Positions 1,329 to 25,657 of a DNA stretch of 64,000 bases are shown piece by piece. A program made the position numbers and the translations under genes. Position 1 is the first letter of the stretch. Each line of letters opens with the position of its first letter. The DNA comes from Subtercola boreus (lineage in GTDB: Bacteria > Actinomycetota > Actinomycetes > Actinomycetales > Microbacteriaceae), in assembly GCF_006716115.1 (NCBI RefSeq), contig NZ_VFOO01000001.1:3782001-3846000 (forward strand). Direction: 5' to 3'. The notes under the pieces were generated by a model, which saw only the letters and a list, made by a program, of their open reading frames with translations, was not told the origin of the DNA and did not search any database.

Positions 1329-1994
1329 CGCGGATGTATACCGCCAGCTGTGGAGCGAGACTCGAGTGAACGACGGTATTCCATTCAAAACGATAGAAGC
1401 TGATGAGTCTTCGTTATACGGAGGAGATCTCGGGATTGGTGTTGCAATCCTCGATACCGACGACGGGTTCCACGACCGTTGCTTCGTTGAACCTGCAGCT
1501 ACCGCTTGAAGTCGTTCGAACGCGGTCGCTCTACCGAGGTCGAGCCTGGCTCATGGCATTGATGAGGTGACTCGAGAATGGCCTGCAACGCATCTCCAGT
1601 AATGCGTCCGTCAGCGATGAGATTCTTCAGCTCGTTTGCGGGATTCATAGTAGGTCTCCGATGTTCGGGTCGTCGTTCGAATCGCGAGCGTCTTCTCACT
1701 GCCGTCGAGGAATTTGCTGCTTCTGAACATCTCGTGCTCCAACGCTCGATGTGTGTGCTCAGGCCCAGATTCCCCCGCTGACCTTGCTTTGGGTTTACGC
1801 CCGGTCCGCCGAGGAGTCAAACTGAGGGGACAGGGGTCTGTTGTTGCGCCGTGGTGCGCTCGGCGCGACCGAAGGACGGCCGCGGCGGCGGAGGTGGCAC
1901 ACTGGGGTGATCCGGGCATCCGGCTACAGCACTTCGGACCGCGGCGTTGCACGACGACAGAACGTGTGACGCGGCCCCTCAGGAAGGACGCTCC
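1329..1994. other. Intergenic region without a recognisable gene
   Basis: About 660 bases of lower G+C than the rest of the window. Several short frames exist on both strands. The best is a minus-strand ATG at 1648 with GGAGA just upstream, giving about 49 residues starting MNPANELKNLIADGRITGD, but no family is recognised. It may be a fragment from the same eroded element as the genes at 1-730. The last bases hold the arginine deiminase leader with an AGGAAGG ribosome site. Confidence 0.4.
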
Positions 1995-3245
1995 ATGCCT
2001 GCACCCTCCGATCTCTACGGTGTGCACTCCGAAGTCGGTCGGCTTCGCAAGGTGCTGGTCTGCGCTCCGGGCCTCGCCCATCGCCGCCTGACGCCGAGCA
2101 ATGCCGACGATCTGCTCTTCGACGACGTGCTCTGGGTCGAGAACGCCCAGCGCGATCACGCCGCCTTCGTCGCCGACCTGCGGTCGAACGACGTCGACGT
2201 GGTCGAACTGCACGAGTTGCTGGCCGCCACGCTGGCCGTGCCGGGGGCCCGCGACTGGTTGCTCGATCGCAAGATCACCGCCAACGAGGTGGGTCTCGGG
2301 CTCATCGACGGCACGCGTGCGTTCCTCGAGAGCCTCGAGCCGCGCATCCTCGCCGAGTACCTGATCGGGGGGTTGTCGACGACCGATCTCCCGGGCGAGT
2401 ACCGGAGCGGCGCCGTCTCGCTGGCGCGCGAGTCGACCGGAGTCGGTGAGTACCTGATGCCGCCGCTGCCGAACACGCTGTACACCCGTGACACGACCTG
2501 CTGGTTGTACGGGGGAGTGACGCTGAATCCGCTCTACTGGCCGGCACGGCACGGTGAAACGTTGCTGATGAAGGCGATCTACGACTTCCACCCCGATTTT
2601 GTGGGGTCGAGGGTCTGGTGGGGCGACCCGGAGAAGGACTGGAGCCAGGCCACTTTCGAAGGCGGCGACATCATGCCGGTCGGAAACGGTGTCGTGCTGA
2701 TGGGCATGAGCGAGCGCACCTCCCGCCAGGCCATCACCCAGGTCGCGACGGCCCTGTTCGAAGCGGGGGCGGCCGAGCGGGTGATCGTCGCCGGCATGCC
2801 CAGGCTGCGCTCGGCCATGCACCTCGACACGGTGTTCACGTTCGCCGACCGCGACATCGTGACGCTGTTCCCGAACATCATGGATGCCGTGCACACGTTC
2901 ACACTGCGACCCTCGGATGCCCTGGGGGGCCTCGACGTCACCGATGAGGGTTCGGCGGCCTTCGTCGATGTCGTCGCGGCGAGCCTCGGCCTGCCGAAGC
3001 TGCACGTCGTCGCGACGGCGGGCGACGCGTACGCCTCCGAGCGCCAGCAGTGGGACTCCGGCAACAACGCCGTGGCTCTCCGCCCCGGCGTGGTCTACAC
3101 CTACGACCGCAACACCCAGACCAACGACCTGCTGCAGAAGGCCGGCATCGAGGTGATCCCGATCGTCGGCGCCGAGCTCGGTCGTGGCCGGGGCGGCGGT
3201 CACTGCATGACCAGTCCGATCATCCGGGATGCCGTCGACTACTGA
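1995..3245 (+). CDS. arcA: Arginine deiminase
   Basis: Hydrolyses L-arginine to L-citrulline and ammonia, the first step of the arginine deiminase route; cytosolic. The 416 residues match the usual 400-420. Family motifs in order: an N-terminal [15 protein letters not shown], the LPNTLYTRD segment, FEGGD with a catalytic Asp, HLDTVFTF with the catalytic His, and the terminal GGGHCMTSP holding the nucleophilic Cys (about C404). The start is ATG 1995 because AGGAAGG lies seven bases upstream; an in-frame ATG at 1947 lacks a site. No ornithine transcarbamoylase, carbamate kinase or antiporter gene is adjacent, so the full energy-yielding pathway is not encoded here. A role in ammonia production against acid stress is possible. 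Confidence 0.95.
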
Positions 3246-5757: not shown

Positions 5758-6105
5758 GCTGCTACTCCTGGATTCTGCGGTGAGCACCGACCGGACGGCC
5801 GGAACTGAGGGTGCCGCACCAACCCGGTGCGGGATGGTGTCGGCTACACAATTGAGACGTTCCGAGATTCGACTTCGTCACAAAATCTTTTTCTATTCGA
5901 ATGCATCGTTCCGCCGGATTGGTGCTTGGACTACCCCAGAACGGGGTCTCCGAGGGACCCTCGATGGGGTCTCGCCGGCGCAAGGGCTACGCACGCCGTC
6001 AGGGATCCGGCTATATTCACTGGCACGGTCTCGCTCGCAGAAGCAAAAGCAAAAGCAAAAGCACGACCAGGAGCACGAGCAGGAGCCGGAAGAGGAAATG
6101 GGCGG
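5758..6105. promoter_or_regulatory. Divergent promoter region of the Asp23 operon and the ECF sigma gene
   Basis: About 350 bases without a convincing gene. On the minus strand GGAAC (5863-5859) is followed after 16 bases by CGAC (5842-5839), a weak ECF-type promoter candidate 82 bases before the Asp23 start. Near 6040-6062 there is a tandem AAAAGC run. The region is more A+T-rich at 5845-5900. Confidence 0.35.
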
Positions 6106-6672
6106 GTGAGCGACACGAACGACAACGATCGGCTCGCGAACGCCGCCGACGCCACGCTCGCCTCCCGTGCCATGGACGGCGATGTCGTTGCCTTCGAGGT
6201 GCTCGCGCGGCGCCACGGACCCCTGATGCGCGTTTTCGCCGCCAAGCTGCTGGGCTCCGACATCGAATCCGACGACATCGTGCAGGAGGCATTCCTCACC
6301 GGATGGCGGAGCTTCGACGACCTCGGCGAGCCCGCCCGTGTGCGCAACTGGCTCATGCGGATCGTCTCGAACAAGGCGATCGACCGCATCCGGGTGCGGC
6401 GGGAACACGCGGATGTCGCAGACTGGGATCCGGCCGCACCGCCCTCCAGCGACCCGAGCCGGATCGTGGAGAACCGGCTCCAGCTGGACGCGGTCTGGGT
6501 TGCGCTCGATAAACTGCCCACCATCCAGCGACAGAGCTGGCTGCTGCGGGAGACCGCCGGTTTCACGTACAACGAGATCGCTGAGGCCCTCGACCTCCCC
6601 GCAGCGACCGTGCGGGGCCTCCTTGCCCGCACCCGGAAGTTCCTCCTCACCGAATTGGAGGCATGGCGATGA
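6106..6672 (+). CDS. ECF-type RNA polymerase sigma factor
   Basis: A 188-residue protein. Sigma-70 region 2 lies at about residues 20-95 (FEVLARRHGPLMRVFAAKLL, DDIVQEAFLTGWRSF, VRNWLMRIVSNKAIDRIR) and region 4 at about 125-180 (LPTIQRQSWLLRETAGFTYN, EIAEALDLPAATVRGLLARTR). This is the two-domain ECF layout. The GTG at 6106 is chosen because AGAGGAA precedes it and the family fold starts soon after; the longer upstream frame runs through the AAAAGC tandem repeat and is unlikely to be translated. It is coupled by a four-base overlap to an Asp23-type gene, a probable regulator, and faces the Asp23/AmaP operon, its likely target. Confidence 0.88.
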   Translation: MSDTNDNDRLANAADATLASRAMDGDVVAFEVLARRHGPLMRVFAAKLLGSDIESDDIVQEAFLTGWRSFDDLGEPARVRNWLMRIVSNKAIDRIRVRREHADVADWDPAAPPSSDPSRIVENRLQLDAVWVALDKLPTIQRQSWLLRETAGFTYNEIAEALDLPAATVRGLLARTRKFLLTELEAWR

Positions 6673-7274
6673 CCGATCACGGCGACACACCCCTGCCTCA
6701 CGACGCAGATGAGCTCATCGACGGTCACACGGTCGACGAGCTCGACGCGTACCTCACTGCCGGCCGCACGCCCTACGACCCGAGCATCGAGAACTCGGCC
6801 AGCTGCCTGCTGTACCTCTCCGCCCTGGAGCGTCTCCGCAACCGCTCGTGGCAGGCCCTCACGCGCGAAGCTGCCGACGGGCACGACCGCGACGAGCTGT
6901 GGATCACCGGCCTGCTCGACACCATCAAAGACGAGGTGCGCGCCGGTCGCGACATCCCGCTCCGCCACCCGGACCCGACCATCCGGTTGACGGTCACCGA
7001 GGCGGCCGTGCAGGGCCTGATCCGTGACGTGGCAGACTCTCTCGACGGTGTCATTCTCGGCCGCATCGTTCTCGTCGGCGACGTCACCCTGCCCGATGAA
7101 CCTGTCGAGGTGCGGATGACCGTCGCCGCCGAGTACGGCCGGGACCTCGTTGCCCTCGCCGAGCGCTTGCGGCTCGCGGTCGCCCGTGCGCTCGACGAGC
7201 ACACCGAACTCGTCATCGTCTCCATCGCGGTGACCGTCGAAGACGTGTACCGGGGGAGGGAGGAGGGCCGATGA
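6669..7274 (+). CDS. Asp23/Gls24-domain protein with N-terminal extension, sigma-factor partner
   Basis: A 201-residue protein. The C-terminal half (about 95-195) is Asp23/Gls24-like: IRLTVTEAAVQGLIRDVADS, VEVRMTVAAEYGRDLVALAE, VIVSIAVTVEDVY. The N-terminal part contains SASCLLYLSALERLRNRSW and IKDEVRAGRDIPL, seen in actinobacterial Asp23 proteins encoded behind ECF sigma genes. The start at 6669 (ATGA overlap with the sigma stop) is supported by GGAGGC seven bases upstream. An anti-sigma or sigma-modulating function is inferred from position only. Confidence 0.7.
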   Translation: MTDHGDTPLPHDADELIDGHTVDELDAYLTAGRTPYDPSIENSASCLLYLSALERLRNRSWQALTREAADGHDRDELWITGLLDTIKDEVRAGRDIPLRHPDPTIRLTVTEAAVQGLIRDVADSLDGVILGRIVLVGDVTLPDEPVEVRMTVAAEYGRDLVALAERLRLAVARALDEHTELVIVSIAVTVEDVYRGREEGR

Positions 7275-7609
7275 CCACCGATTCGGAGCTCGCGCGCTCT
7301 CTCACCGCTGCCGTCACGGCGATCCACGGCGTCACGGCGGTGTTCCCCGTGAGGGCGATCCGTCAGGCTGCGTCAGAGGGCATCGCCAGCGCTCTCGACA
7401 TCCCGGCGCCCGACGTTGTGGTCGACGTCGCTCGCGGGGCAGACGCTGTGACGATCACCGCTCACATCGGGGCCTCGACCGGGCGGCCGACCCCGGAGAC
7501 GCTCGCCGCTGCGGCCGATGCGCTCAGGGCTGCGGCCACGGCCGAAGGCGTCGAGAACAGCATGATCTTCGTCAAAGCGCGCCTGATCGCGAAACCCACG
7601 CCCCGATGA
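7271..7609 (+). CDS. Small Asp23-operon protein of unknown function
   Basis: A 112-residue soluble protein that overlaps the preceding gene by four bases (ATGA), so it belongs to the sigma-factor operon. It has alternating helices and strands (ELARSLTAAVTAIHGVTAVF, VVVDVARGADAVTITAHIG), reminiscent of a shortened Asp23-like fold, but no family is firmly recognised. Its 3' end overlaps the convergent hydrolase gene by 38 bases. Confidence 0.65.
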   Translation: MTTDSELARSLTAAVTAIHGVTAVFPVRAIRQAASEGIASALDIPAPDVVVDVARGADAVTITAHIGASTGRPTPETLAAAADALRAAATAEGVENSMIFVKARLIAKPTPR

Positions 7610-8450
7610 CGGTGCGGATGGCCGTGACCAACGCGATCGGCTGGTCGAGCATCGGCGCGTGGCCCGTCTCGGGCAGCTGCGCGAAGAGCGCGCCGCTCGC
7701 CTCGACGATCGCGCGGGCCGACCCGTCCGTCACGCCGGTCTCGGCCCGCAGGTAGGCCAGCGGCCGGCGGAGCGCCCCGAACTGAGCCCTCAGTACCTCG
7801 CCGCCGAAGATGTTGCTGTCGAACTTCCAGCTCCAGCCGCCGGGCACCTCGGTGATGGAGTGGGTCGCGATGTGCCGGGCGACGTAGGGGAGCATCGACT
7901 GCGCCGGTACGGGGCGGAACCGTTCGATCATCCGCTCGGCGCTCTCGTACACACGCCGACGCACGGGCAGGAGGTCGTGCGACTCGATCGAGGTGAGCTC
8001 TCCCGGCGTGCCGACAGGGGAGTCGATCACGATGGCTGACCCGACGCTGGTGTCGGCGCGTGACGCGAGGTGTGTGGTGATCAGGCCGCCGAGGCTGTGC
8101 CCGACCAGGGTGAAACCGTCACCGAGGCCGGCGTGCCGCGCGACGGTGAGCACCTCTTCGCCCCAGGTCTCGACGCTGTACGTCGCGCGGTGCTCACTGT
8201 CGCCGTGGCCGGAGAGGTCGAGGGCGACGACCCTGCCATCGGTCGCGAGGAGGGGAGCGATGTGGTCCCACCAGCGGGAGTGCGCAGCGCCGCCGTGCAC
8301 CAGCACTATGTTCCGCCGGCCGCGCTCACCCCAGGTGCGGTACCGGATGCTCGCACCTGCGACGCTCGTCTCGAATACTTCCGGGGCCTGGGCGAGGGCC
8401 GCCGTGAACCATCCCGGAACGGTAGTCGTCGCCTCGGTCGTTGTGCTCAC
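7572..8450 (-). CDS. Alpha/beta hydrolase, possible acyl-CoA or ring-cleavage hydrolase
   Basis: A 292-residue alpha/beta hydrolase. Visible: the oxyanion-hole strand NIVLVHGGAAHSRWW, the nucleophile elbow LVGHSLGG (Ser), the acid region around IVIDSP, and the catalytic His in PETGHAPMLDQP. The GTG at 8450 is chosen because AAGGAG lies seven bases upstream. It is transcribed divergently from the benzoyl-CoA-reductase-like operon at 8587. C-C hydrolases of this fold open ring ketones in aromatic pathways, and others are thioesterases or esterases; sequence alone does not decide. Part of the catabolic island by position. Confidence 0.8.
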   Translation of the reverse strand: MSTTTEATTTVPGWFTAALAQAPEVFETSVAGASIRYRTWGERGRRNIVLVHGGAAHSRWWDHIAPLLATDGRVVALDLSGHGDSEHRATYSVETWGEEVLTVARHAGLGDGFTLVGHSLGGLITTHLASRADTSVGSAIVIDSPVGTPGELTSIESHDLLPVRRRVYESAERMIERFRPVPAQSMLPYVARHIATHSITEVPGGWSWKFDSNIFGGEVLRAQFGALRRPLAYLRAETGVTDGSARAIVEASGALFAQLPETGHAPMLDQPIALVTAIRTVIGAWVSRSGAL

Positions 8451-8586
8451 TGCGTGCTCCTTCTGGCCGCTCGAATACTCGACACTTATGGTGACAAAAT
8501 TGCAAAACTTGACAAACATCTGTCCGAGGCCCAGTCTAATGGAAGTTGTATTACGCCACTCTTTCGACGACGAGGCAGGGCTCTCG
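8451..8586. promoter_or_regulatory. Divergent promoter region before the reductase-like operon
   Basis: A distinctly A+T-richer stretch (8485-8520) contains two direct copies of TGACAAA (8492-8498 and 8510-8516). TTGACA at 8509-8514 may be a -35 box for the plus strand; a good -10 at the right distance is not evident (TCTAAT at 8535-8540 is 20 bases away). The direct repeats may be an activator or repressor site. Confidence 0.4.
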
Positions 8587-9753
8587 ATGACCGATTTCCG
8601 TCTCCGCGGCTTTTCGCGGCTGCAGGCTGCCGCGCAGGACCCGATCGGCTACGCCAGGTCATGGAAGGCGCGCACCGGGCGCCCGGTGATCGGTTCGTTC
8701 CCCATGAACTTCCCCTCCGAACTCGTTCACGCGACCGGCGCCCTGCCGCTGATCGTGCAGGAGAGTCGTACGCCCATCACCGAGGGCCGGAGCCTGCTGC
8801 CGGAGTTCTACTGCAGCTACACGCGGAGCGTCGCCGACCAGGCCGCGGTCGGCGAACTCGACGTGTTCGACGCCTTCGTGCTGGCCGATCACTGCGTGCA
8901 GCTGCTCGGCGCCGCAGACGTCATCCGCTGGGCGAAGCCGGAGACGCCGATGCACTTCGCCCAGTTCATCAGCTCGATGGACGACCCGTGGAGCGGCGCC
9001 CAGGTGCGCGACAAGGTCGACGCGCTGCGGGTCGAGGTCGAGGAGATCGTAGGGGTGACGGTGACCCCCGAGGTGCTCGGGGCCAGCATCCGTCTGTTCA
9101 ACTCCAACCGGCGGCTGCTGCGGGAGTTCTACGACCGGCGAAAGTCGGGGGCACTCCGCATCAGTGCGGGCGAGCTGCAGGTGCTGGTGAAGTCGAGCAT
9201 GGTCATGGACATCGAAGAGCACACGAGCATCCTGAACGACATGCTAGACGGCCTCGACGTCGACAGCGCCGCCCCGGCCTCGCTGGTGCGGCTGCACCTC
9301 TCCGGCCACTTCTGCGCGCCGCCCCGGGTCGAACTGCTCGACCTGATCGAGGAGTGCGGCGTGCTGGTCGTGAACGACGATCTCTACCACGGCACCCGCT
9401 ACATCTCGACGGATGTTCCCGAGACCGGCGATCCGTTCGACGCGCTGGCAACCTGGTACCTCGACCGCAACGTCTCGGCGCCCTGCGGCACCCGGGTGCA
9501 GCGGAACGTCGACTGGGACAGCTACCTCGTCGCCAGTCTCGAAGACAGCCGGGCCGACGGCGTCATCACGCTGATGGCGAAGTTCTGCGAGCCGCTGATG
9601 CTGTACTACCCGGAGCTCCGGCGGGTTCTGGATGATCGGGGCATCCCTGTGCTCCTCATCGAGACGGAGCATGAAGGGCTCGCGGCCGAGTCGGTGCGCA
9701 CCCGCGTCGAGACGTTCGTGGAACGTATCAGCAGAAAGAAGGTAGCCGCATGA
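8587..9753 (+). CDS. 2-Hydroxyacyl-CoA dehydratase / benzoyl-CoA reductase-type subunit (BcrC/HgdB-like)
   Basis: 388 residues, close to BcrC-type subunits (about 380-390). The family catalyses ATP-driven single-electron chemistry on CoA thioesters: dehydration of 2-hydroxyacyl-CoA or reduction of benzoyl-CoA. Visible: an N-terminal IGSFPMNFPSELVHATGALPLIV (the family start), then candidate Fe-S ligand cysteines in YCSYTRS (C76), ADHC (C103) and KFCEP (C334), the positions I recall as conserved in this superfamily, plus C243 in SGHFC and C300. A start at ATG 8539 would add 16 residues; 8587 fits the family length. It overlaps the next subunit by four bases (ATGA) and needs the activator encoded at 11143. 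Confidence 0.85.
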   Translation: MTDFRLRGFSRLQAAAQDPIGYARSWKARTGRPVIGSFPMNFPSELVHATGALPLIVQESRTPITEGRSLLPEFYCSYTRSVADQAAVGELDVFDAFVLADHCVQLLGAADVIRWAKPETPMHFAQFISSMDDPWSGAQVRDKVDALRVEVEEIVGVTVTPEVLGASIRLFNSNRRLLREFYDRRKSGALRISAGELQVLVKSSMVMDIEEHTSILNDMLDGLDVDSAAPASLVRLHLSGHFCAPPRVELLDLIEECGVLVVNDDLYHGTRYISTDVPETGDPFDALATWYLDRNVSAPCGTRVQRNVDWDSYLVASLEDSRADGVITLMAKFCEPLMLYYPELRRVLDDRGIPVLLIETEHEGLAAESVRTRVETFVERISRKKVAA

Positions 9754-11141
9754 CCCTCGAACTCCCACCCACCCGGCAGTCGCTCGACCTCTCGGCGACG
9801 AAGTTCATCACTCCCGAGAAGCCCGACAAGTCGAACCGTCTCGCCAGCACCAAGGCGGGCGGCAAGATGGTCGCCCAGTACTGGGAGAACATCTTCACGG
9901 CCAAGGAGCGCGGCAAGCACGTGGTCTGGTACAACGGCACGGCGCTGAACCCGATCTTCCAGGCGGCGGGGCTCGAATGGTGCCACGGGGAGGCGTTCTC
10001 GGCCAGGCTTGCGGCGATGCACCTCGAGGGCCCGGCCCAGGCTGCGGGCGAGGAGTACGGCTACATCGGTGAGCTCTGCTCGTACGCCCGCACCCACCTC
10101 GGCTGCGCCGTGATGACGCAGAAGGGCATCACCGAGAAACAGTCCGGCATCGTCGGCATGGTCGACCAGGACGAACTGGCCGCGAAGCTCCCCTCGCCCG
10201 ACTTCTTCGTGAACGCCTACGCCGGCTGCAGCACGGGCCAGCAGTGGGACGCGATGACGTACCGCGTGTTCGGCAAGGAGTTCCCGCTCTTCAACGTCTC
10301 GCTGCCGATGATCTGGGGCAACAAAAAAGACTCCGGATACCTCCGCGGCAGTGAGTGGGAGAAGACGCCGCTGTACGTCGAGGAGCAGCTGAAGAAGCTC
10401 ATCGAGTTCATCGAGTACCAGACGAAGACACCGTTCGACTGGGACGCGCTGTCAGAGAACATGTACTACATCAAGAAGGCCTCTGAGCTGCGGCTGGAGG
10501 CGATGGCGCTCTGCGCGGCCGCCCCGACTCCCGCCACCTACTGGGACTGGGTCGCCAGTATCGCGCCGATCAACTTCCTGCCCGCGAACCAGCTGCTGGT
10601 CGACTACTTCCAGGGCGTGAAGGACGAGATCGAGCAGCGCATCCGCGACAACGTCTCGGCCGTGGCGAACGAACGGTACCGGGTCTATTTCGACGGCATC
10701 ATGAACTGGAACAAGCTCGGCTTCCTGACCCGCAAGTTCGCTGAGTACGACGTGGCGGTCGTCGCCGGCCGCTACACGCACGACTCGTTCTGGCAGGAAC
10801 CCGACCTCATCGACCTCGACCGTCCGCTGCTCGGCATGGCCCAGCACTACCTGATCTGCCCGATCAACCACGGTCTGAAGATCATGGAGGAGCTGCTGCT
10901 GAAGCGCTGCGACGAGTACGGCATCGACGGTATCGCGTTCCATTCGACGCGCACCTGCCGCGCGATGACGAACCCGCAGCACATTCTGGCGCGCACCGCC
11001 GAGCGCGACCGCGGCATCAAGTCGTTCTTCTTCGAGGGCGATGTTGCCGACGCCTCCTTCTACAAAGACGAGTCGCTCGAGAGCGGCCTGGTCGCGATGC
11101 TCGAGTCGATCGACCAGCAGCGCTCGAAGGCGCGGGTGTGA
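9750..11141 (+). CDS. 2-Hydroxyacyl-CoA dehydratase / benzoyl-CoA reductase-type subunit (BcrB/HgdA-like)
   Basis: 463 residues, in the range of BcrB-type subunits (about 430-450). It should form the active-site heterodimer with the 8587 product. Candidate Fe-S ligands: C110 in GELCSYARTHLG, C160 in NAYAGCSTGQQWDAM and C403 in STRTCRAMTNPQ, in the same order as the CxY.R, TGC and KSC positions I recall in BcrB. The VKDEIEQRIRD stretch is also BcrB-like. Many members are anaerobic enzymes. Whether this one dearomatises a ring or dehydrates a hydroxyacyl-CoA cannot be settled from sequence; the surrounding genes favour a cyclic substrate. Confidence 0.85.
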   Translation: MTLELPPTRQSLDLSATKFITPEKPDKSNRLASTKAGGKMVAQYWENIFTAKERGKHVVWYNGTALNPIFQAAGLEWCHGEAFSARLAAMHLEGPAQAAGEEYGYIGELCSYARTHLGCAVMTQKGITEKQSGIVGMVDQDELAAKLPSPDFFVNAYAGCSTGQQWDAMTYRVFGKEFPLFNVSLPMIWGNKKDSGYLRGSEWEKTPLYVEEQLKKLIEFIEYQTKTPFDWDALSENMYYIKKASELRLEAMALCAAAPTPATYWDWVASIAPINFLPANQLLVDYFQGVKDEIEQRIRDNVSAVANERYRVYFDGIMNWNKLGFLTRKFAEYDVAVVAGRYTHDSFWQEPDLIDLDRPLLGMAQHYLICPINHGLKIMEELLLKRCDEYGIDGIAFHSTRTCRAMTNPQHILARTAERDRGIKSFFFEGDVADASFYKDESLESGLVAMLESIDQQRSKARV

Positions 11142-11142
11142 G

Positions 11143-12216
11143 ATGCGGGCGGTGGATGTCGCGGGCGGTGTGAGCGCGGTGGATGCCGCAGGCGCAGGCG
11201 CAGGCGCAGGCGCGGGTGCGGGCGACGGTGAGTGGTTCGTGATGGGCGTCGACCTCGGGTCGACCACGGCGAAGGCCGTCATCGTGGACAGTGGCGGCAG
11301 GATGGTCGCGTCGCGCGTCGTGCAGATGGGCGCCGTCAGCCGCGAGGGCGTGCGGGTCGCCATCGAGGCGTGCCTCGAGGATGCCCGGCTCACGCCCGCC
11401 GACATCTCGCGCACGATCAGCACAGGCTACGGCCGGCGGCTGGTGCCCTCGGCCGACAAGACCTTCACCGAGATCACCTGCCATGCCCGCGGTGCCGCTG
11501 CGCTTTCACCCGGAGTGCGCCTCGTGATCGACATCGGCGGACAGGACAGCAAGGCCATCGCCGTCGACGACGACGGCCTGGTCGACCGGTTCGCGCTGAA
11601 CGACCGGTGCGCCAGCGGTACGGGCCGGTTCTTCGACGTGCTCTGCCGTGCTCTTGAAGTCGACCTCGACGAGGTGGCGGCGCTCGCGCTCGCGGGAGGA
11701 ACCGACCTCGAGGTGAGCAGCATGTGCGCGACCTTCGCCGAGACGGAGGTGATCTCGTTGCTCGCGCAGGGTGCCGAGACCGCGGACATCTCGGCCTCGG
11801 TGCACCGCGCCGTCGCCGGGCGGACGCTCGGCCTGATCGCCCAGGTCGGCAAGGCCAGCCCCGTGGTGATGACCGGCGGTGTGGCGAAGAACCCGGCGCT
11901 GGTCGCGTTCCTCGAGGAGGCGCTCGGGCTTCCGCTCGAGGTGCTCGACGACCCGCAGATCGCCGGGGCGCTCGGCGCGGCCCTCATCGCGCGCGACGAG
12001 CACGCCGCGGCGCTGGCCGATGCTGCCGCTGCGCTGGCCGATGCCGCCGCCGCGCCCCTCCGGTTCGTCGCCGTCGCCGATGTCGGCCCCGAGAAGCAGG
12101 TGATCCCGGGCAACGCCGTCACGGCCCCGCACTGCGCCGACTGCGACGGCCACCTCGACTCGCACTCCCACCGCCCGGTCTCGGTCATCCTCCAGCTCGG
12201 CCCGGTCGGCCGCTGA
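11143..12216 (+). CDS. ATP-dependent Fe-S activator (HgdC/BadF-BcrA family)
   Basis: 357 residues, ASKHA-fold ATPase that transfers an electron from a reduced ferredoxin or flavodoxin to its dehydratase/reductase using ATP. Visible: the phosphate loop VDLGSTTAKAV (37-47), VIDIGGQDSKAI, the adenosine motif MTGGVAKNPAL, and the two cysteines that bridge a [4Fe-4S] cluster between protomers, C156 in NDRCASGTG and C195 in SSMCATF. Their spacing of 39 equals that of HgdC as I recall it (Cys127/Cys166). Only one activator gene is present, so a homodimer is expected, as in HgdC and unlike the BcrA/BcrD pair. Oddities: an Ala-Gly dipeptide run at residues 17-27 and a C-terminal extension with HCADCDGH (C331/C334). 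Confidence 0.9.
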   Translation: MRAVDVAGGVSAVDAAGAGAGAGAGAGDGEWFVMGVDLGSTTAKAVIVDSGGRMVASRVVQMGAVSREGVRVAIEACLEDARLTPADISRTISTGYGRRLVPSADKTFTEITCHARGAAALSPGVRLVIDIGGQDSKAIAVDDDGLVDRFALNDRCASGTGRFFDVLCRALEVDLDEVAALALAGGTDLEVSSMCATFAETEVISLLAQGAETADISASVHRAVAGRTLGLIAQVGKASPVVMTGGVAKNPALVAFLEEALGLPLEVLDDPQIAGALGAALIARDEHAAALADAAAALADAAAAPLRFVAVADVGPEKQVIPGNAVTAPHCADCDGHLDSHSHRPVSVILQLGPVGR

Positions 12217-12306: not shown

Positions 12307-13167
12307 GTGACCACCGCAGCGAAAGCCGAGACCGCACCGCGGGAGCGCCGCGGCGGTCACGCTGAACTGGCCCGCGGAAGCTCCCGGTCGTTGCTGCTCA
12401 CGGTGCTCGGCGAGCTGGTCTGGCACTCGGGCGTCCCTGCACGCACATCGTCGCTTCTGTACGTGATGAACGGGCTCGGCTTCGAGGAGAGCGCGGCCCG
12501 GCAGGCGATCATCCGCGGCGCGGACTCGGGCTGGATCGAGCCGCACCGGCACGGCCGCGAAGTGAGCTGGACCCTCAGCCCGAGCCTCGTGAAGACCTTC
12601 GAGGAGGGGTCGCTGCGGGTGGAGTCGCTCGGCGATCCCTTCGAGAACTGGGACGGTCGCTGGCTCGTGCTGCTGATCACCGTTCCGCAGGCGCTCCGCG
12701 CGAACCGCAAGCGGCTCTACAGCGACCTGGAGTGGGCCGGGTTCGGCAACCCCTCAGCCGGCGTTTGGCTGAGCCCGCACACGGAGCGGCGCGAGCAGGT
12801 GTCGGCGGTCATCCAGAGACTCGGTCTGACCGACGACACGATGTCGTTCCTCGGAGAGGCCGACAGGGTGGGCATCTCCGAACAGGACATCGTGCGCCGC
12901 GGCTGGGACCTCGACGCCGTGGCGCTCGACTACGAAGCCGCCTTCGAGGCTTTTCGCGATGTGCAGCCGAGCGACGGCGACGAGAGGCTGTTCACGCACA
13001 TCCGCCTGCTGAGCGAGCTGCAGCGCTTTCCGTTCAGCGACCCCCAGCTGCCCGAGGCGCTGCTTCCCGACTGGATCGGCCGCCGCGTCACCCGCCACTT
13101 CCAGGCCCTCCGTGCGGCCTGGGCACCGGATGTGGCGGCCCGCTGGGCCGCCCTCAACGCGGCCTGA
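12307..13167 (+). CDS. PaaX-family transcriptional regulator
   Basis: A 286-residue protein with PaaX architecture: an N-terminal winged helix (SLLLTVLGELV, TSSLLYVMNGLGFEESAARQ, AIIRGADSGWI), a central ferredoxin-like part (KRLYSDLEWAGFGNPSAGVW) and the C-terminal PaaX helices (LFTHIRLLSELQRFPFSDP onward). PaaX proteins repress phenylacetate and related aromatic-acid genes and respond to aryl-CoA ligands. It lies 90 bases behind the activator gene, so it probably senses an acyl-CoA of this pathway. Start GTG 12307. Confidence 0.9.
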   Translation: MTTAAKAETAPRERRGGHAELARGSSRSLLLTVLGELVWHSGVPARTSSLLYVMNGLGFEESAARQAIIRGADSGWIEPHRHGREVSWTLSPSLVKTFEEGSLRVESLGDPFENWDGRWLVLLITVPQALRANRKRLYSDLEWAGFGNPSAGVWLSPHTERREQVSAVIQRLGLTDDTMSFLGEADRVGISEQDIVRRGWDLDAVALDYEAAFEAFRDVQPSDGDERLFTHIRLLSELQRFPFSDPQLPEALLPDWIGRRVTRHFQALRAAWAPDVAARWAALNAA

Positions 13168-13190: not shown

Positions 13191-14882
13191 TCAGCCGCCT
13201 GCGGAGACCGACTGCGAAGCGGCGCGTGAGACCGGCACCGCGCCCGTGGCCGGTGCGGCGGGCCGCGCCACGAGCTCGCCCGCGGCGATGCGGTCGAGCA
13301 GCACGAACTTCTGCACCTTGCCCGAGGGCGTCATCGGGTAGGCCTCGACGAAGAACCACTGGGTGGGCGTCTTGTGCGCTGAGATGCGCTCGCGGCACCA
13401 CGCCTTCAGGCTTTCGGGCGTCGGCTCCGTCGACCCTGCCTTCAGTCGGATGACCGCGCCGACCTGCTCGCCCCAGCGCTCGTCGGGGATGCCCACGACG
13501 ATGGCTTCGGCGACATCCGGGTGCGCGAAGAGCAGTTCCTCGATCTCCTTCGGGAACAGGTTCACCCCGCCGCGGATGATCATGTCCTTCACCCGGCCGG
13601 TGATCTTCAGGAACCCCCGGTCATCCATCGTGCCGAGGTCGCCCATGTGCAGCCAGCCGTCGGCTTCGATCGTCTCTGCTGTCTCCGACGGCATGTTGTA
13701 GTAGGCCAACATGTTCTGGTAGCCCCGGCACAGAATCTCACCCTGCTGCCCGATGGGAACGACCTCGCCCGTCTCGGTGTCGACGATCTTCACTTCGAGC
13801 TCGGGGAGCGGCTGGCCCACCGTGGTCGACTGGTCGGCCGCGGTGTCGCTGATGCGGGTCTGGCTGATGACCCCGTGCATCTCGGTCTGGCCGAACAGGA
13901 TGCTGAACTGGCAGCCGAGCTCCTCGGTCACCCGCCGCACGAGAGCCTCTGAGACGGTCGCGGCTCCCGACCAGATGGTCTGCACGCTCGACAGGTCACG
14001 GGTGACGCGGTCGGGGTGTTCGAGCACGGCCAGCAGCATCGTGGGCACCATCAGCGAGTGCGTGCCGTGGTAGGTCTCGAAGAGTTCCAGTGTCAGGGCG
14101 GGGTCGAACGCCGGCATGACCACGTAGGTGCCGTGCACCGAGAGCGTCGCGAGTTCGGTGACCGCGCCACCCCCGATGTGGTACATCGGCATGCCGTTGA
14201 TGCAGACGCCGCCGTCGGTCATTCCGGCGCGCTCGCCGACGAACGCCGCCTCGTTGACGATGCCCTTGTGGTGGAGGAGTGCGCCCTTCGGGAAGCCGGT
14301 GGTGCCCGACGTGTACTGGATCTGTACCGGATCCAGCGGTGCGACGACGGGGAACTCCCGGCCGGGATCGCCCGACTCGAGGAAGTCTGCCCAGTCGGAG
14401 AAGCTGATCAGCTCGCGGAGCTCGGGTGCCGCGCCGCGCACCTCGTCGATGATGGCGCGGAGGTCGCTGCCGCGGTACTCGTCGACGAAGAAGATCCCGA
14501 CGGCACCCGACTGGGCTAGTACATACTCCAGCTCGTGCGCGCGGTACGCCGGGTTGATGGCGACGACGAGCATCCCGGCCATCGCGACGGCCTGCTGGAG
14601 GATCACCCAGTCGGCGGAGTTGGGAGCCCAGATGGCGATGCGGTCGCCCGGCTGGAAGCGGGCGAGCAGTCCGCGGGCCGCGCTCTCGGTGTCCCGCAGG
14701 TATTCGGCGTAGGTCCAGTGCCGGCGCGCGCCCGGATCGGGCTGGCCGTCGACCAGCGCGAGTCGGTCGGGTACGTGCGAAGTGGCCTCCCGCAGCAGCG
14801 CGGGCAGGGTCTGCTCGCGGATCCCGTCGCTCGCCTCGGAGGCCCAGCTGGAGAGAGTCAGGTTCGTGCTCAGGGCGTTCAC
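13191..14882 (-). CDS. AMP-binding acyl-CoA ligase
   Basis: 563 residues, ANL superfamily. Visible: the P-loop-like QYTSGTTGFPKGALLHH, the LFGQTEMHG motif (A5), the GWLHMGDLG motif (A7), GRVKDMIIRGGVNLFP (hinge A8) and the catalytic Lys near the end in MTPSGKVQKF. It activates a carboxylic acid to its CoA thioester. The GTG start has GGAGG eight bases upstream and lies three bases behind the stop of the preceding ligase, so the two are coupled. Two consecutive ligases suggest related acids or successive entry points. An Ala/Pro/Ser-rich C-terminal tail (last 30 residues) is extra. Substrate unknown; an aromatic or alicyclic acid is inferred. Confidence 0.85.
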   Translation of the reverse strand: MNALSTNLTLSSWASEASDGIREQTLPALLREATSHVPDRLALVDGQPDPGARRHWTYAEYLRDTESAARGLLARFQPGDRIAIWAPNSADWVILQQAVAMAGMLVVAINPAYRAHELEYVLAQSGAVGIFFVDEYRGSDLRAIIDEVRGAAPELRELISFSDWADFLESGDPGREFPVVAPLDPVQIQYTSGTTGFPKGALLHHKGIVNEAAFVGERAGMTDGGVCINGMPMYHIGGGAVTELATLSVHGTYVVMPAFDPALTLELFETYHGTHSLMVPTMLLAVLEHPDRVTRDLSSVQTIWSGAATVSEALVRRVTEELGCQFSILFGQTEMHGVISQTRISDTAADQSTTVGQPLPELEVKIVDTETGEVVPIGQQGEILCRGYQNMLAYYNMPSETAETIEADGWLHMGDLGTMDDRGFLKITGRVKDMIIRGGVNLFPKEIEELLFAHPDVAEAIVVGIPDERWGEQVGAVIRLKAGSTEPTPESLKAWCRERISAHKTPTQWFFVEAYPMTPSGKVQKFVLLDRIAAGELVARPAAPATGAVPVSRAASQSVSAGG

Positions 14883-14885: not shown

Positions 14886-16544
14886 TCAGGCCTCCACGGG
14901 AAGGGACGCCAACTGGCGCAGTTCGAATTTCTTGACTTTGCCGGTCGCCGTCGTCGGCAGTTCATCGATGAAGATGATGCGCTCCGGGCATTTCGGAGGC
15001 GCGATGTGCCGCTCGTTCTGCAGATAGGCGGCCAGTTCGCCGATACTCACGCGTTCCTCGCCGGCCGGCACGATGAACGCGCAGACCTTCTCGCCCATCC
15101 GCTCGTCGGGCATCGACACCGCGGCGATGGCCTGGATGCCCGGATGGTAGGCCGCGTTCTCTTCGACCTCCCGCGCCGAGATGTTCAGCCCGCCCCGGAT
15201 GATCAGGTCTTTGATGCGGCCGGTGACGCGGAGGTACCCGCCGTCGACCCGCCCGAGGTCTCCGGAGTGGAAGAAGCCATCGGGCCCGATCGCGGCGTCG
15301 GTCTTCTCGGGGTCGTTCCAGTAGCCGAGAAGCATCCCGGGGCTGCGGAAGGTGATCTCGCCCTCCTGGCCCTCGCCGAGTGCGACCCCCGCCTCGTCCC
15401 GGATTTCGAGGGTGACTCCGGATGCCGGCCGGCCGTCGGAGGTCAGGGCCTTCTCGCCCGGGTCGTCGTGCTGCATCGCGGTCACGATCAGGGCCTCGCT
15501 GTTGCCGTAGACGGGCAGTGCGAGACATCCGGGAAAAAAGGCGTGCCACTCGCGAAGCAGGGCTTCAGGGATCGGCGCCCCGGCGCTCGCCCAGACCCGC
15601 ATGCTCGACACGTCGTGGGTCGGATCGGCTTTGAGCGCCGCCAACGCCATCTGCAGGAAGGGGGTGGCGCTCATGCTGACGGTCGTCTGGTACTCCGCGA
15701 TCCGTCGCAGGCCGTCGTTCGGCTCCCACACGTCGACGAGGTGGATGGCCGCGCCGTACAACAACGGCAGCATGACTCCGGCAGCGAGCCCGGTGGCGTG
15801 CGTGACGGGCGTCGGCATGAACATGATGTCGTCTTCGGTGAGCTGGAAGACGTCGGTCGCGAGGCGCCGCGCTGTGAAGCTCATGGTGGCGAACGTGTGC
15901 TCGCAGCCCTTCGGCCGCGACTCGGTTCCCGAGGTGTAGATGACGGCGTGTGTGTCGTTCGAGGAGGGAAGTGGCCCGAGTTCGGCATCGGTGGGCACGT
16001 GGTCGCCGGCGATGAGGTCGTCGTAGGAGAGGGCCGACCCGGTCGTCTCTCCCCGCACGATGACGACATTCTCGAGGGCGGGAGTGGTGGCGCGGATATC
16101 CTCGATCATCGTCTGGTAGTCGAAGTGCCGGAAGTTCGCCGTGACGATCGACATCTTCGCGCCGGAGTTGTCGATGACGAACTTCACCTCGTCACCCCGG
16201 TAGACCGGCATGGTCGGTACCAGCACCGCGCCGAGCCGGGCGAGCGCGAGGTAGATGACGACGAACTCGTTCCAGTTCGGCAGTTGCACCTGCACGCGGT
16301 CGCCGTGGGAGATGCCGAGCTTCTTCAGCGAGAGCGCCAGGCGGCGGGACTGGTCGTGCAGTTCTCCGCGCGTCAGCGTGCTGTTGCGATCGGTGAGGGC
16401 GATGCGATCGGGCCCGTTCGTCGCCAGCTCATCGAGGTGGGAGGCGAGGCTGCCGGTGTCCCACTGCCCCGTGCGTTCGAAGTCGTCCACCTGCTCGGCC
16501 GTATAGCGGGTGTGCTTCTGAGTCGTGTTGTCTGTTGTCGTCAT
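14886..16544 (-). CDS. AMP-binding acyl-CoA ligase (cyclohexanecarboxylate/aryl-CoA ligase-like)
   Basis: 552 residues. ANL motifs: AVIYTSGTESRPKGCEHT (an unusual P-loop with E-S-R after TSGT), YGNSEALIVTAM in place of the usual xGxTE motif, FFHSGDLGRVDGGYLRVTG, GRIKDLIIRGGLNISA, and the C-terminal ATGKVKKFELR with the catalytic Lys. Overall it resembles cyclohexanecarboxylate- and hydroxybenzoate-type ligases more than long-chain FadD. The start is ATG 16544; the open frame continues upstream but overlaps the next gene. Its promoter region carries an 18-bp palindrome. It is the upstream partner of the ligase at 13191. Confidence 0.85.
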   Translation of the reverse strand: MTTTDNTTQKHTRYTAEQVDDFERTGQWDTGSLASHLDELATNGPDRIALTDRNSTLTRGELHDQSRRLALSLKKLGISHGDRVQVQLPNWNEFVVIYLALARLGAVLVPTMPVYRGDEVKFVIDNSGAKMSIVTANFRHFDYQTMIEDIRATTPALENVVIVRGETTGSALSYDDLIAGDHVPTDAELGPLPSSNDTHAVIYTSGTESRPKGCEHTFATMSFTARRLATDVFQLTEDDIMFMPTPVTHATGLAAGVMLPLLYGAAIHLVDVWEPNDGLRRIAEYQTTVSMSATPFLQMALAALKADPTHDVSSMRVWASAGAPIPEALLREWHAFFPGCLALPVYGNSEALIVTAMQHDDPGEKALTSDGRPASGVTLEIRDEAGVALGEGQEGEITFRSPGMLLGYWNDPEKTDAAIGPDGFFHSGDLGRVDGGYLRVTGRIKDLIIRGGLNISAREVEENAAYHPGIQAIAAVSMPDERMGEKVCAFIVPAGEERVSIGELAAYLQNERHIAPPKCPERIIFIDELPTTATGKVKKFELRQLASLPVEA

Positions 16545-16603
16545 CGACCTGACCTGAGCCTTTCGTGAGGTGACAGCATTGTGCCTCGAGGGAAGAATAG
16601 CGC

Positions 16604-16629
16604 TTTGGTCAAACCATTGCAATGGTTTA
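16604..16629. promoter_or_regulatory. Operator candidate before the ligase pair
   Basis: TTTGGTC (16604-16610) opens TGGTCAAACCA (16606-16616, a 4-3-4 inverted repeat), overlapping a perfect 18-bp palindrome AAACCATTGCAATGGTTT (16611-16628). The first element matches the TnGTnnnACnA form bound by FadR-type GntR regulators. Confidence 0.6.
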
Positions 16630-16635
16630 CCTTTT

Positions 16636-17616
16636 CTACACGATGTCGAGAACGACCTTCCCGATCGCCGTACCGCTCTCGAGGTGGGCGTGGGCTTCGG
16701 ATGCTGCGTCCAGGGGGAAGACGCGATCGACGGGTGGAGGCGCGGCGGCCGTGCGGTCGAGCAGCGACAGGAGCCCCGCGAAGTCCTGCGGGCTACCCAT
16801 CGAGGTGCCGATGATCTCGTGCTGTGCGAAGTAGAAGGGACGCACGGCGATGGTCGCGACATCCGAGCGCGAGGCGCCCAGGGTGACCAATCGGCCGCCG
16901 AGGCGGAGGGCGCGCAAGGACTCGGCCCAGGTGCCGACCGAGTCGAGCACCAGGTCGAACCCCCGGGCATCCGGCGTCAGCTTCCTGGCCTCCTCCGGCC
17001 AGGCCGGGTCGGAGTACAGCACCCCGTCGTCGGCGCCGGCCGAGACCGCCCGGGCGATCTTCTCCTCCGACGACGACGTGACGCTCACGTGCGCGCCGAT
17101 GGCCGCGGCGAGCGAGACGGCCATGGTCGCGACCCCGCCGCCGGCACCCAGCACGAGCAGGTGCTCGCCCGCCTGCAGCCGCCCCCGGCTGAACAGTGCG
17201 CGGAACACGGTGACGCCGACGAGAGGCAGCGCCGCCGCCTCGTGCCAGCTGAGGCCGGGGGGCTTCGGCACCAGGCAGTCCTCCGGAACCGAGACGAACT
17301 CGGCATAGGTGCCGTGCTGGTGGTCGCCGAGGATCTGCCAGTCGGCCGCCGGTGCGTTCTCGCGCCGACCCCAGTGGAGCGACGGCAGGATCATGACCTC
17401 CTCGCCGGTGTCGACGCGGATGCCGGCACCGTCGGCGCCGGGCACGTGGGGGAGCGGCGAGGCGTACTGCCCGCGGCGCACGAGCACGTCGTGCCAGTTC
17501 AGCGCGGCGCACGTCAGGCGAACATCCACCCACCCCGGCTGCGGCAGCGGACGTGCCACCTCGCGCAGCTGCAGAACCTCGGGGCCGCCGAACTCGGTCA
17601 GCACCGCAGCGCGCAT
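16636..17616 (-). CDS. Zinc-binding-dehydrogenase-family (quinone-oxidoreductase-like) MDR protein
   Basis: 326 residues of the medium-chain dehydrogenase/reductase superfamily: MRAAVLTEFGGPEVLQLREV start, CAALNWHDVLVRRGQY, VPGADGAGIRV, an NADP-binding VLGAGGGVATMAV loop and a C-terminal GKVVLDIV. The catalytic zinc ligands are not in place (ALNWHD instead of C-H-T-D), so it is of the non-zinc quinone-reductase/enoyl-reductase kind; enoyl-CoA reductase activity is possible. The start ATG 17616 lies eight bases downstream of the SDR stop, so the two form one unit. Confidence 0.8.
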   Translation of the reverse strand: MRAAVLTEFGGPEVLQLREVARPLPQPGWVDVRLTCAALNWHDVLVRRGQYASPLPHVPGADGAGIRVDTGEEVMILPSLHWGRRENAPAADWQILGDHQHGTYAEFVSVPEDCLVPKPPGLSWHEAAALPLVGVTVFRALFSRGRLQAGEHLLVLGAGGGVATMAVSLAAAIGAHVSVTSSSEEKIARAVSAGADDGVLYSDPAWPEEARKLTPDARGFDLVLDSVGTWAESLRALRLGGRLVTLGASRSDVATIAVRPFYFAQHEIIGTSMGSPQDFAGLLSLLDRTAAAPPPVDRVFPLDAASEAHAHLESGTAIGKVVLDIV

Positions 17617-17624: not shown

Positions 17625-18530
17625 TCACACGCTGCGCTGCCCTTTGCTGGCTTCGGATGCGGCGGTGCTGGCCGCTTTCACATCGGCCCAGTCCTGGTCG
17701 GAGAGCGAGGTGAGACCCGCGAATGTGGCGGGTCCCGCGAGGCGCTGGCCGCCATCCATCGCGATGGTCTCGCCGGTGAGGTAGTCGCAGGCGTCGGAGA
17801 GCAGGAAGATCGTGAGCGCCGCGAGTTCCTCGATCGTGCCGACCCTCTTCATCGGCACGTCGTCGGGCTGGGTCGCGCCGATCGCGCTCGAACCGGTGGG
17901 GCTCAGCATCTCCCAGGCGTAGTCGGTGGGGATCGGGCCGGGGGCGAGCGCGTTCAGCCGGATGCCGTAGCGCGCCCATTCGACGGCGAGCGACATCGTC
18001 ATGGCGTGCACAGCGGCCTTCGCCATGGCGGAGGGCACGACGAACGCCGATCCGGTCCACACCCAGGTGGTGAGCGTCGAGAGCACGGAGCCCGGGAGTC
18101 CCTCGGCGATCCAGCGCTTGCCTGCGGCGTGGGTGGTGTTGAACGATCCGTTCATCACGGTGGAGCTGACCGCCTCGAAGGCGCGGGCGCTGAGGCTCGC
18201 GGTCGGGGCGATGAAGTTGCCGGCCGCGTTGTTGATCACGCTGGTGAGCGGACCGTGCTCCGACCAGATGGAGCTCATCGCCTCGTCGACGAGCTCGGCC
18301 TTCCGAACATCCACCGCCTGGCAGAAGACGAGGCCGTCCCGGCCTCCGGATGCCTCGGCGGCCGACTCCTCGAGCACAGCCAGCCGGCGCCCCCAGAGGT
18401 GCACCTCGGCACCGTGATCGACGAGGTGGCGGGCGACGCCCCGGCCGAGCCCCGTGCCGCCTCCGGTGATCAGGATGCGCTTGCCCGCGAGAACGTCGGG
18501 GGCGAAGATGGATTTTCGTGCAGGGCTCAT
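17625..18530 (-). CDS. SDR of the 2,4-dienoyl-CoA reductase type
   Basis: 301 residues. It has the SDR cofactor loop ILITGGGTGLGRGVARHLVD and the signature INNAAGNFIAPT, which is characteristic of 2,4-dienoyl-CoA reductases. The usual Tyr-x-x-x-Lys is replaced by PSAMAKAAVHAMT, so the canonical Tyr is absent while the Lys is kept, as in mammalian DECR. The N-terminal FAPDVLAGKR is also typical. DECR enzymes reduce conjugated dienoyl-CoA with NADPH. In this island a cyclic dienoyl-CoA produced by the reductase-like enzyme is a plausible substrate. The start ATG 18530 skips 14 upstream codons that lack a ribosome site. Confidence 0.85.
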   Translation of the reverse strand: MSPARKSIFAPDVLAGKRILITGGGTGLGRGVARHLVDHGAEVHLWGRRLAVLEESAAEASGGRDGLVFCQAVDVRKAELVDEAMSSIWSEHGPLTSVINNAAGNFIAPTASLSARAFEAVSSTVMNGSFNTTHAAGKRWIAEGLPGSVLSTLTTWVWTGSAFVVPSAMAKAAVHAMTMSLAVEWARYGIRLNALAPGPIPTDYAWEMLSPTGSSAIGATQPDDVPMKRVGTIEELAALTIFLLSDACDYLTGETIAMDGGQRLAGPATFAGLTSLSDQDWADVKAASTAASEASKGQRSV

Positions 18531-18555
18531 TCGTGGCACACCTTCGGGCTCAAGT

Positions 18556-18566
18556 TGGACATACCA
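18556..18566. promoter_or_regulatory. Operator candidate before the SDR/MDR unit
   Basis: TGGACATACCA (minus strand TGGTATGTCCA), one mismatch from TGGTATGACCA at 31644-31654. It lies 26 bases upstream of the SDR start and between divergent genes. Confidence 0.5.
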
Positions 18567-18624
18567 TATCAAAGGACCGACCTTTTAGGCCAGCGTTCTG
18601 GCTCCGGCCCGGCACAATGGAGGT

Positions 18625-19281: not shown

Positions 19282-19369
19282 TGGCCCTTCCATTTACGCG
19301 GGTTCGGGAGTTACCCTCATCGTGACCACTCGGGCAACGATGCCCAGGGTGGAGAACTGGAGACCGACA

Positions 19370-25566: not shown

Positions 25567-25609
25567 CCTCATCTCCTTCGATGAAAGCCGCGATTCGTTT
25601 GACGCTATC

Positions 25610-25636: not shown

Positions 25637-25657
25637 GTGTCAAGGGAGACATCAGCC

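Follow-up and report, generated by a model that had tools for sequence, protein, structure and literature searches.

The window analysed here is a stretch of 64,000 nucleotides from the actinomycete Subtercola boreus (assembly GCF_006716115.1, contig NZ_VFOO01000001.1, positions 3,782,001 to 3,846,000). It contains a module of three adjacent genes that are predicted to encode the two subunits and the activase of an iron–sulfur enzyme related to 2-hydroxyacyl-CoA dehydratases and benzoyl-CoA reductases:

8587–9753, + strand: beta subunit (P0001, 388 amino acids), PF06050, HadC/BcrC-like, with the four-cysteine ligand pattern C76, C103, C300 and C334.
9750–11141, + strand: alpha, or active-site, subunit (P0002, 463 amino acids), PF06050, with ligands C110, C160 and C403, Glu81 as the catalytic residue by alignment, and the clade motif CSTGQQW.
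11143–12216, + strand: acyl-CoA dehydratase activase (P0003, 357 amino acids, start uncertain), with cysteines C156 and C195.

The three open reading frames (ORFs) are co-directional, full-length and free of internal stops. The beta and alpha genes share 4 bp (9750–9753), and the activase gene follows right behind the alpha stop codon, which ends at 11141. The activase start is uncertain because the first 30 or so residues are rich in Ala and Gly and most homologues align only from about residue 30. We can exclude a pseudogene or a chance ORF on the basis of full length, intact ligands and alpha orthologues at 91–92% identity. An initial sequence-only reading of this DNA had described two overlapping genes with the expected cysteine ligands and an ASKHA activator with two cysteines 39 residues apart. 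Both descriptions hold: the cluster-ligand cysteines of both subunits align with those of the solved chains HadB/HadC and BzdO/BzdN, and 39 residues separate C156 from C195.

Pfam model HGD-D (PF06050, cut-off 28.4 bits) matches the beta subunit with 226.9 and the alpha subunit with 142.9 bits. The activase matches Pfam BcrAD_BadFG with 196.4 bits (cut-off 31.5) and NCBIfam TIGR00241 with 234 bits (cut-off 125.4). By its PF06050 matches and predicted fold, the pair is a member of the benzoyl-CoA reductase/2-hydroxyacyl-CoA dehydratase (BCR/HAD) superfamily. It is the only PF06050 pair of its genome (two matches in a whole-genome search), and the module activase is the single TIGR00241 match, which confirms the earlier statement that one activator gene stands in place of a BcrA/BcrD pair. 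The same reading took the subunit lengths as closer to those of BcrC and BcrB. The lengths are correct, but they do not establish kinship, since length alone tells little.

Profile scores of the pair lie far under the cut-offs of the characterised families. The alpha subunit scores 126 bits with the HadB model (cut-off 750) and 76 bits with BcrB (cut-off 487); the beta subunit scores 166.5 bits with HadC (cut-off 700) and 165.1 bits with BcrC (cut-off 421). None of the curated cut-offs of the BcrB, BcrC, BzdN and BzdO models is reached. Among solved structures, the activase is closest to the benzoyl-CoA reductase subunit MbdQ (210 bits), with HadI at 209 bits. Trees were built from 60 alpha and 61 beta rows that cover 35 chosen of 81 fetched clade loci, the window, L137 and L139 of genome G720 (whose rows partly repeat L105) and 7 of 29 loci from a phylum sample (L013–L041); L138_966_m and the fragment L099_20215 were left out of the alpha tree and L138_0_m out of the beta tree. 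With few characterised references and some long branches in these trees, both subunits fall into a clade of their own of 41 rows (support 100/100 each), and Bcr and Mbd stand outside it with 100/100 support. In the beta tree the sister of this clade is a group (99/93) in which HadC/Hgd-like and BcrC/MbdN rows stand together, so that neither function can be taken as inherited. The deep branches of the alpha tree have no firm order, and long branches come together among them, which leaves sisterhood in that tree unsure. The pair forms a lineage separate from both Had/Hgd and Bcr/Mbd. Neither subunit was placed inside a characterised dehydratase clade, and a plain HadBC orthologue is ruled out because the clade falls outside Had/Hgd.

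Predicted structures (mean predicted local distance difference test scores of 88.8 for beta and 83.7 for alpha) do not decide between the families. The beta model reaches a template modelling (TM) score of 0.89 with HadC and with BzdN alike, BzdN being first by E-value. The alpha model finds HadB first by E-value, with query TM scores of 0.78 for MbdO and 0.76 for HadB.

The residues around the clusters were counted in the clade rows, 90 of alpha and 85 of beta, and also in other rows, found in L013–L041 (29 alpha, 28 beta). Glu81 of the alpha subunit aligns with HadB Glu55 and BzdO Glu65, and this Glu and the three cysteine ligands are kept in 88 of the 90 alpha rows, the other two being fragments without the N-terminal columns. 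The loop behind the second alpha ligand reads CS[TS]GQQW in the 42 clade rows of another alignment. That alignment lost the BcrB N-termini and with them the BcrB Glu; BcrB was re-trimmed for the tree. At the position of HadB Ser37, a residue regarded as important, all 88 readable clade rows carry Gly.

For comparison, the double-cubane ligands of BzdN are Cys36/73/100/263/293/327 and the ligands of BzdO are Cys95/128/380, as given in PMC11971306. At the six BzdN columns the clade beta rows read PCC[YFW]CC (83 of 85) or ACCYCC (one), and the last row is cut at its N-terminus; the four-cysteine pattern is therefore present in 84 of 85. HadC and a Proteus HadC-like row read PCCACC, BzdN and the double-cubane protein DCCP read CCCCCC. 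Only three cysteines occur in MbdN (QCCFSC) and in BcrC from five genomes above the BcrB cut-off (PCCMTC in four, PCCHTC in one). The clade pattern is that of HadC, and the small subunit looks HAD-like by this measure. A HgdB-like Fusobacterium row lacks the beta cysteines, so the HadC-type pattern is not universal in the Had/Hgd/Fld family. Two candidate markers of benzoyl-CoA reductases proved unusable: the double cubane, because MbdN and BcrC have only half of its six cysteines, and BzdO His131, because BcrB and MbdO rows carry Phe there. The phylum-sample loci L013–L041 contain another combination, in which a HadB-like alpha subunit (SECCVC in 28 of 29 rows, one fragment) is paired with a beta subunit in which none of the six double-cubane cysteines is missing (27 of 28 rows). 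Judged by these residues, such pairs are a mix of HadB and BzdN types.

PF06050 pairs were counted in 28 whole genomes and activases in 25 of them. Fourteen genomes contain one pair and six contain three clade pairs (G708, G711, G712, G714, G719 and G720). Two pairs occur in G710, G715, G695, G700 and G721, in G716 in addition to one remote match, and in G694 and G698 in addition to a remote divergent pair, which lies outside the island (G694:C12, Citricoccus; G698:C23, R. jostii). In a subtype tree made by a quick method, the three pairs of G708, G711, G714, G719 and G720 fall one each into types I, II and III. For G712 the tree places two of the pairs (I and II), and the third, whose row is cut at the locus end, was assigned to type III from its motif alone. 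G710 combines types I and II, G715 and G716 types II and III, and the window protein is of type I. Activases above the cut-off number one in 20 of the 25 genomes, including all six three-pair genomes, and two in the other five, where each adjoins a different pair. G711 also gives a second, fragmentary match of 23.6 bits. As metagenome-assembled genomes, G719 and G720 may lack a gene, and the pairs of G720 lie on two contigs. A tandem activase pair was found in none of the 25 genomes searched, nor in the genome of the window. A conjugative plasmid of Rhizobium leguminosarum ATCC 14479 carries a different divergent PF06050 pair with two activases (L046, 7887–13315), near rhodanese-like and sulfate permease genes.

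The lineage has a patchy spread. Within the genus, close relatives (about 92%) occur in two further genomes, which makes 3 of 12 with the present one. Any match was found in 7 of 299 genomes of the family sample: the present one, one genome of another genus with a close relative, and five with matches at 24–27% identity. The phylum sample gave a match in 44 of 396 genomes, the matches other than these close ones at no more than 33% identity. A scan of genome contigs, from which the best 80 of 97 candidates were kept, yielded 78 clade loci at 48–92% identity. The named hosts include Rhodococcus, Nocardia, Gordonia, Amycolatopsis, Pseudonocardia, Nocardioides, Saccharopolyspora, Brevibacterium, Citricoccus and Intrasporangium, as well as Sphingopyxis, Novosphingobium, Paracoccus, Mesorhizobium, Zhongshania and Solimonas. 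It also turns up among plasmid records, in Rhodococcus ruber at 77%, in strain QY30 at 64.5% (found by the scan as well), in Sphingopyxis macrogoltabida at 64% and in Azoarcus KH32C at 48%. The nearest named relatives are metagenome-assembled genomes labelled Frankiales (92%), Subtercola (91%) and Microbacteriaceae (91%). The distinct lineage in an aerobic-type host that had been suggested from the sequence is thus borne out, and it extends far beyond one actinomycete to Actinomycetota and Pseudomonadota. Its patchy spread and its megaplasmid copies suggest that it has moved by horizontal transfer.

The module is part of a larger gene island. Family counts refer to 82 loci (the window, 3 plasmid loci and 78 scan loci) and are rough, given single-linkage clusters and cut contigs:

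7572–8519, − strand: alpha/beta hydrolase, divergent from the module; a 47% homologue adjoins the module in Citricoccus (L049).
12307–13167, + strand: PaaX-family regulator (family in 34/82 loci).
13191–14882, − strand: acyl-CoA ligase (family in 50/82 loci).
14886–16970, − strand: second acyl-CoA ligase, 61% to R. ruber; its domain starts only near ORF residue 150, which puts the true start lower.
16636–17610, − strand: zinc-type quinone/enoyl reductase family, 67% to R. ruber.
17625–18572, − strand: short-chain dehydrogenase/reductase (SDR); nearest model 2,4-dienoyl-CoA reductase (223 bits, cut-off 318).
18625–19281, + strand: hotdog-fold thioesterase family.
19265–20848, + strand: aldehyde dehydrogenase family.
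20875–21975, + strand: medium-chain dehydrogenase/reductase-type alcohol dehydrogenase, 57% to R. ruber (family in 17/82 loci).
22054–23157, − strand: CaiB/BaiF-type (class III) CoA transferase (family in 35/82 loci).
23165–24724, − strand: third acyl-CoA ligase.
24793–25572, − strand: core SDR of the module (family in 61/82 loci).
25637–26497, + strand: crotonase-family protein.
26494–27651, + strand: acyl-CoA dehydrogenase, nearest to cyclohexanecarboxyl-CoA dehydrogenase AliB (545 bits, just under the cut-off of 575).
27725–28519, + strand: crotonase-family protein.
28632–29498, − strand: SDR, 63% to Azoarcus and 64–68% to the proteobacterial loci L104, L110 and L113.
29511–30575, − strand: Rv3169-family protein, 62% to R. 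ruber.
30572–31639, − strand: phosphotransferase homologue, 67% to an R. ruber phosphotransferase-family gene, with weak APH matches.
31774–32541, + strand: regulator homologue, 66% to an R. ruber FadR/GntR-type protein; last island gene before menB.

Clustering recovers the alpha gene in all 82 loci, the beta gene in 78 and the activase in 63; direct BLAST at 40% identity raises the last count to 72. Of the ten loci without an activase, six (L047, L048, L069, L083, L096 and L097) end soon past the alpha gene, and L075, L092, L098 and L105 lie in three-pair genomes. The island reaches upstream of the window, from about −20.9 to 32.5 kb. Among its 53 ORFs, predicted from codon-position GC only, 33 have a match in a panel of neighbour genes from R. 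ruber, Sphingopyxis and Azoarcus; for 23 of them the match is an R. ruber gene (57–82% identity). The absence of panel matches from about −1.6 to 7.6 kb divides the island in two. This separating stretch contains an arginine deiminase (1947–3245; PRK01388, 533 bits). Upstream of the module, at 5827–7274, the gene for an ECF-type sigma factor precedes one whose Asp23 match narrowly misses the cut-off (27.1 of 28 bits). The gene at 32605–33492 was considered as a ring hydrolase of the island and rejected: its 531 bits (cut-off 378) identify it as the MenB with which the host makes menaquinone, and the island has its right border there.

The genome also contains orthologues of R. ruber BadI-like (80%), PimC-like (78%) and AliB-like (73%) proteins; the BadI-like island gene sits upstream of the window. 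The R. ruber BadI-like protein scores 328 bits with the badI model (cut-off 468) and is nearly as close to MenB models, and the PimC-like protein of the host scores 197 bits (cut-off 624). These proteins are kin of the named enzymes and not proven orthologues. The AliB-like family occurs in 20 of the 82 loci. The Rv3169-family and phosphotransferase genes (29511–31639) recur across islands, this APH/Rv3169-like family being found in 19 of 82 loci; such phosphotransferase-type kinases are linked elsewhere to hydroxyacyl-CoA breakdown. Nine loci have a gene for a P450tol-like cytochrome P450 within 10 kb of the module. In R. ruber a P450 lies about 30 kb away, with P450tol as the best solved match (688 bits) and P450terp, which we take to be CYP108, at 473 bits; this cluster and the R. 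jostii locus join P450, alcohol dehydrogenase and aldehyde dehydrogenase genes to the module. In the host genome no close P450tol-like gene was found (best 34%). Beside the module, some proteobacterial and Rhodococcus loci carry a DMSO-reductase-family molybdopterin oxidoreductase (L043, 19415–21577; homologues in L079, L092 and L108). The sequence-only reading noted no electron-donor gene in the window. This extends to the whole genome for the POR/KOR gamma domain PF01558, with 0 matches; other ferredoxin reductases and donors were not searched for.

How might this enzyme work? With moderate confidence we propose that the module encodes a heterodimeric, ATP-activated Fe–S enzyme which most likely dehydrates a 2-hydroxyacyl-CoA in the breakdown of alicyclic (terpenoid- or naphthenate-like) acids by an oxygen-respiring host. 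The single activase, as in Had, Fld and Hgd systems and unlike BcrAD or BzdPQ, argues for dehydration, as do the HadC-like beta cysteines, the retained alpha ligands and Glu, an alpha score higher for HadB than for BcrB, and HadB as the first match of the alpha model by E-value. The AliB-, BadI- and PimC-like genes would provide the alicyclic context, and the CaiB-type gene, present in 35 of the 82 loci, recalls the CoA transferases HadA and FldA. A dehydratase needs electrons for activation only, which suits an aerobic cell and a genome without POR/KOR better than stoichiometric ring reduction.

In HadBC, ATP drives a one-electron reduction of the alpha cluster; the substrate becomes a ketyl radical, loses the alpha-hydroxyl group and a proton, returns the electron and leaves as 2-enoyl-CoA. 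By analogy, we surmise that a similar course is most likely here. The CoA ester would be formed by a CoA ligase or the CaiB-type transferase, and the activase dimer would use ATP to push one electron into the alpha-subunit [4Fe-4S] cluster. Transfer of this electron to the thioester carbonyl would give a ketyl radical that expels the alpha-hydroxyl group, with Glu81 and a cluster-bound water handling proton and hydroxide. Since the electron would return to the cluster, only catalytic amounts would be needed. The 2-enoyl-CoA product, for example cyclohex-1-enecarboxyl-CoA, could enter the AliB/BadI/Pim-like steps of the island. A speculative substrate is 1-hydroxycyclohexanecarboxyl-CoA, derived from methyl oxidation of a tertiary alcohol; it would fit the AliB/BadI-like neighbours and the loci with P450, alcohol and aldehyde dehydrogenases. 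Substrate, reaction, radical course and the way of coping with oxygen are what we infer from this comparison. More tentatively, the lineage could represent a third BCR/HAD functional class in oxygen-respiring bacteria, one that dehydrates or otherwise transforms tertiary or ring-borne alpha-hydroxyacyl-CoAs with up to three pairs sharing one activase.

Several observations speak against dehydration. The BcrC model nearly equals HadC on the beta subunit, the activase is marginally closest to MbdQ, the beta model fits BzdN as well as HadC, and the alpha model has a slightly higher query TM score with MbdO than with HadB. The joint sister position of the beta clade confers no function, Ser37 is replaced by Gly throughout, and the AliB, BadI and PimC matches all remain under their cut-offs. 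The P450tol-like genes near the module would likewise be compatible with a route from a methyl-arene to an aryl-CoA, and known activators are very oxygen-sensitive.

One way around this last difficulty concerns conditions and is compatible with any chemistry: the module may be used only under oxygen limitation, so that microaerobic hosts would face no oxygen paradox. Azoarcus and some Paracoccus (Paracoccus solventivorans), which we take to be denitrifiers, and the frequent anoxic microsites of soil would agree with this, but most carrier genera are presumably strictly aerobic and O2-requiring P450s lie close to the module in the nine loci mentioned. We regard this explanation as rather unlikely. 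We also consider it unlikely that the enzyme reduces or isomerises another CoA ester, such as a conjugated dienoyl-CoA, or catalyses a reaction new to the superfamily, with types I, II and III acting at successive steps. Such a reading would accommodate the place of the clade as a third beta lineage beside Had and Bcr, an active site that diverges (Gly instead of Ser37, the CSTGQQW loop, HGEA) and the occurrence of all three types with one full-length activase in six genomes; the retention of all dehydratase cluster ligands and the catalytic Glu, and a dienoyl-CoA-reductase-like SDR already present in the island, are not in its favour.

Slightly less likely again is a single-activase enzyme like class I benzoyl-CoA reductases, which in an aerobe would remove the aromaticity of an alkylbenzoyl-CoA before a BadI-like hydrolysis of the ring. 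It would draw on the shared superfamily, the P450-containing R. ruber and R. jostii loci, the BadI-like protein of R. ruber and the PimC-like protein of the host island, the nearby PaaX-type regulators, and the proximity of the activase to MbdQ and of the beta model to BzdN. Against this stand the lack of a tandem activase pair, the low BcrB and BcrC scores, the position of Bcr/Mbd outside the clade, beta cysteines unlike those of BcrC, MbdN and BzdN, and a host genome with neither POR/KOR nor a close P450tol-like gene; moreover, a single arene would hardly account for an island with three paralogous pairs. On the number of activases, the scores of the models, the cysteine pattern and the trees, we rejected a benzoyl-CoA reductase as first choice. 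Of the initial assignment to a BCR/HAD-type enzyme, the superfamily pair with one activase therefore stands, whereas its benzoyl-CoA reductase option is the less supported part.

Among characterised systems the closest parallels are HadBC/HadI (PDB 3o3m, 4eht), the (R)-2-hydroxyisocaproyl-CoA dehydratase of Clostridioides difficile, and its kin HgdAB and FldBC. They share with the module two PF06050 subunits, one activase gene, three alpha ligands, the Glu55 equivalent, the four-cysteine beta pattern and a CaiB-type CoA transferase, which lies near the module in 35 of 82 loci. The module differs in its scores far under the HadB/HadC cut-offs, its separate clade, Gly at Ser37, presumably mostly aerobic hosts, islands with alicyclic-acid genes and up to three pairs per activase. 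The class I benzoyl-CoA reductases BcrABCD, MbdNOPQ (9g87, 9gai) and BzdNOPQ (8s02) share fold and superfamily, with a beta subunit as near to BzdN, and an activase as near to MbdQ, as to the Had proteins; paired activase subunits (BcrA/D, BzdP/Q) are missing from the module system and POR/KOR from the genome, and beta cysteines and clade differ. DCCP (6eno, 7yyl) has the same fold and is an ATP-driven reductase component, but it forms a homodimer whose subunits have six cysteines each, whereas the module beta subunit lacks the equivalents of C36 and C263 (BzdN numbers). The genes for aerobic cyclohexanecarboxylate degradation (ali/bad) in Rhodococcus aetherivorans BCP1 also include AliB/BadH and a naphthoate-synthase-like gene; the word dehydratase occurs nowhere in the main text of that study, which thus describes no such step there (PMC5906575).

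The R. ruber, Sphingopyxis and Azoarcus proteins are publicly annotated as '2-hydroxyacyl-CoA dehydratase family protein', so membership in the superfamily is already known. A search of the open-licence literature brought up no paper about the lineage, its aerobic hosts, its islands or its one-activase three-pair sets, and none that joins '2-hydroxyacyl-' or '2-hydroxyglutaryl-CoA dehydratase' with Rhodococcus. Enzymes of this superfamily are textbook examples of anaerobic, oxygen-sensitive radical catalysts. A lineage widespread in aerobes of the Rhodococcus, Nocardia and Sphingopyxis type would place ATP-driven ketyl chemistry beside P450s and oxygen respiration, and would raise the testable question of how activated clusters survive. 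It might yield oxygen-hardier enzymes for study and could supply steps in terpenoid or naphthenic-acid breakdown, while the sets of three pairs with one activase would allow the specificity of an activase for its partners to be tested within one cell.

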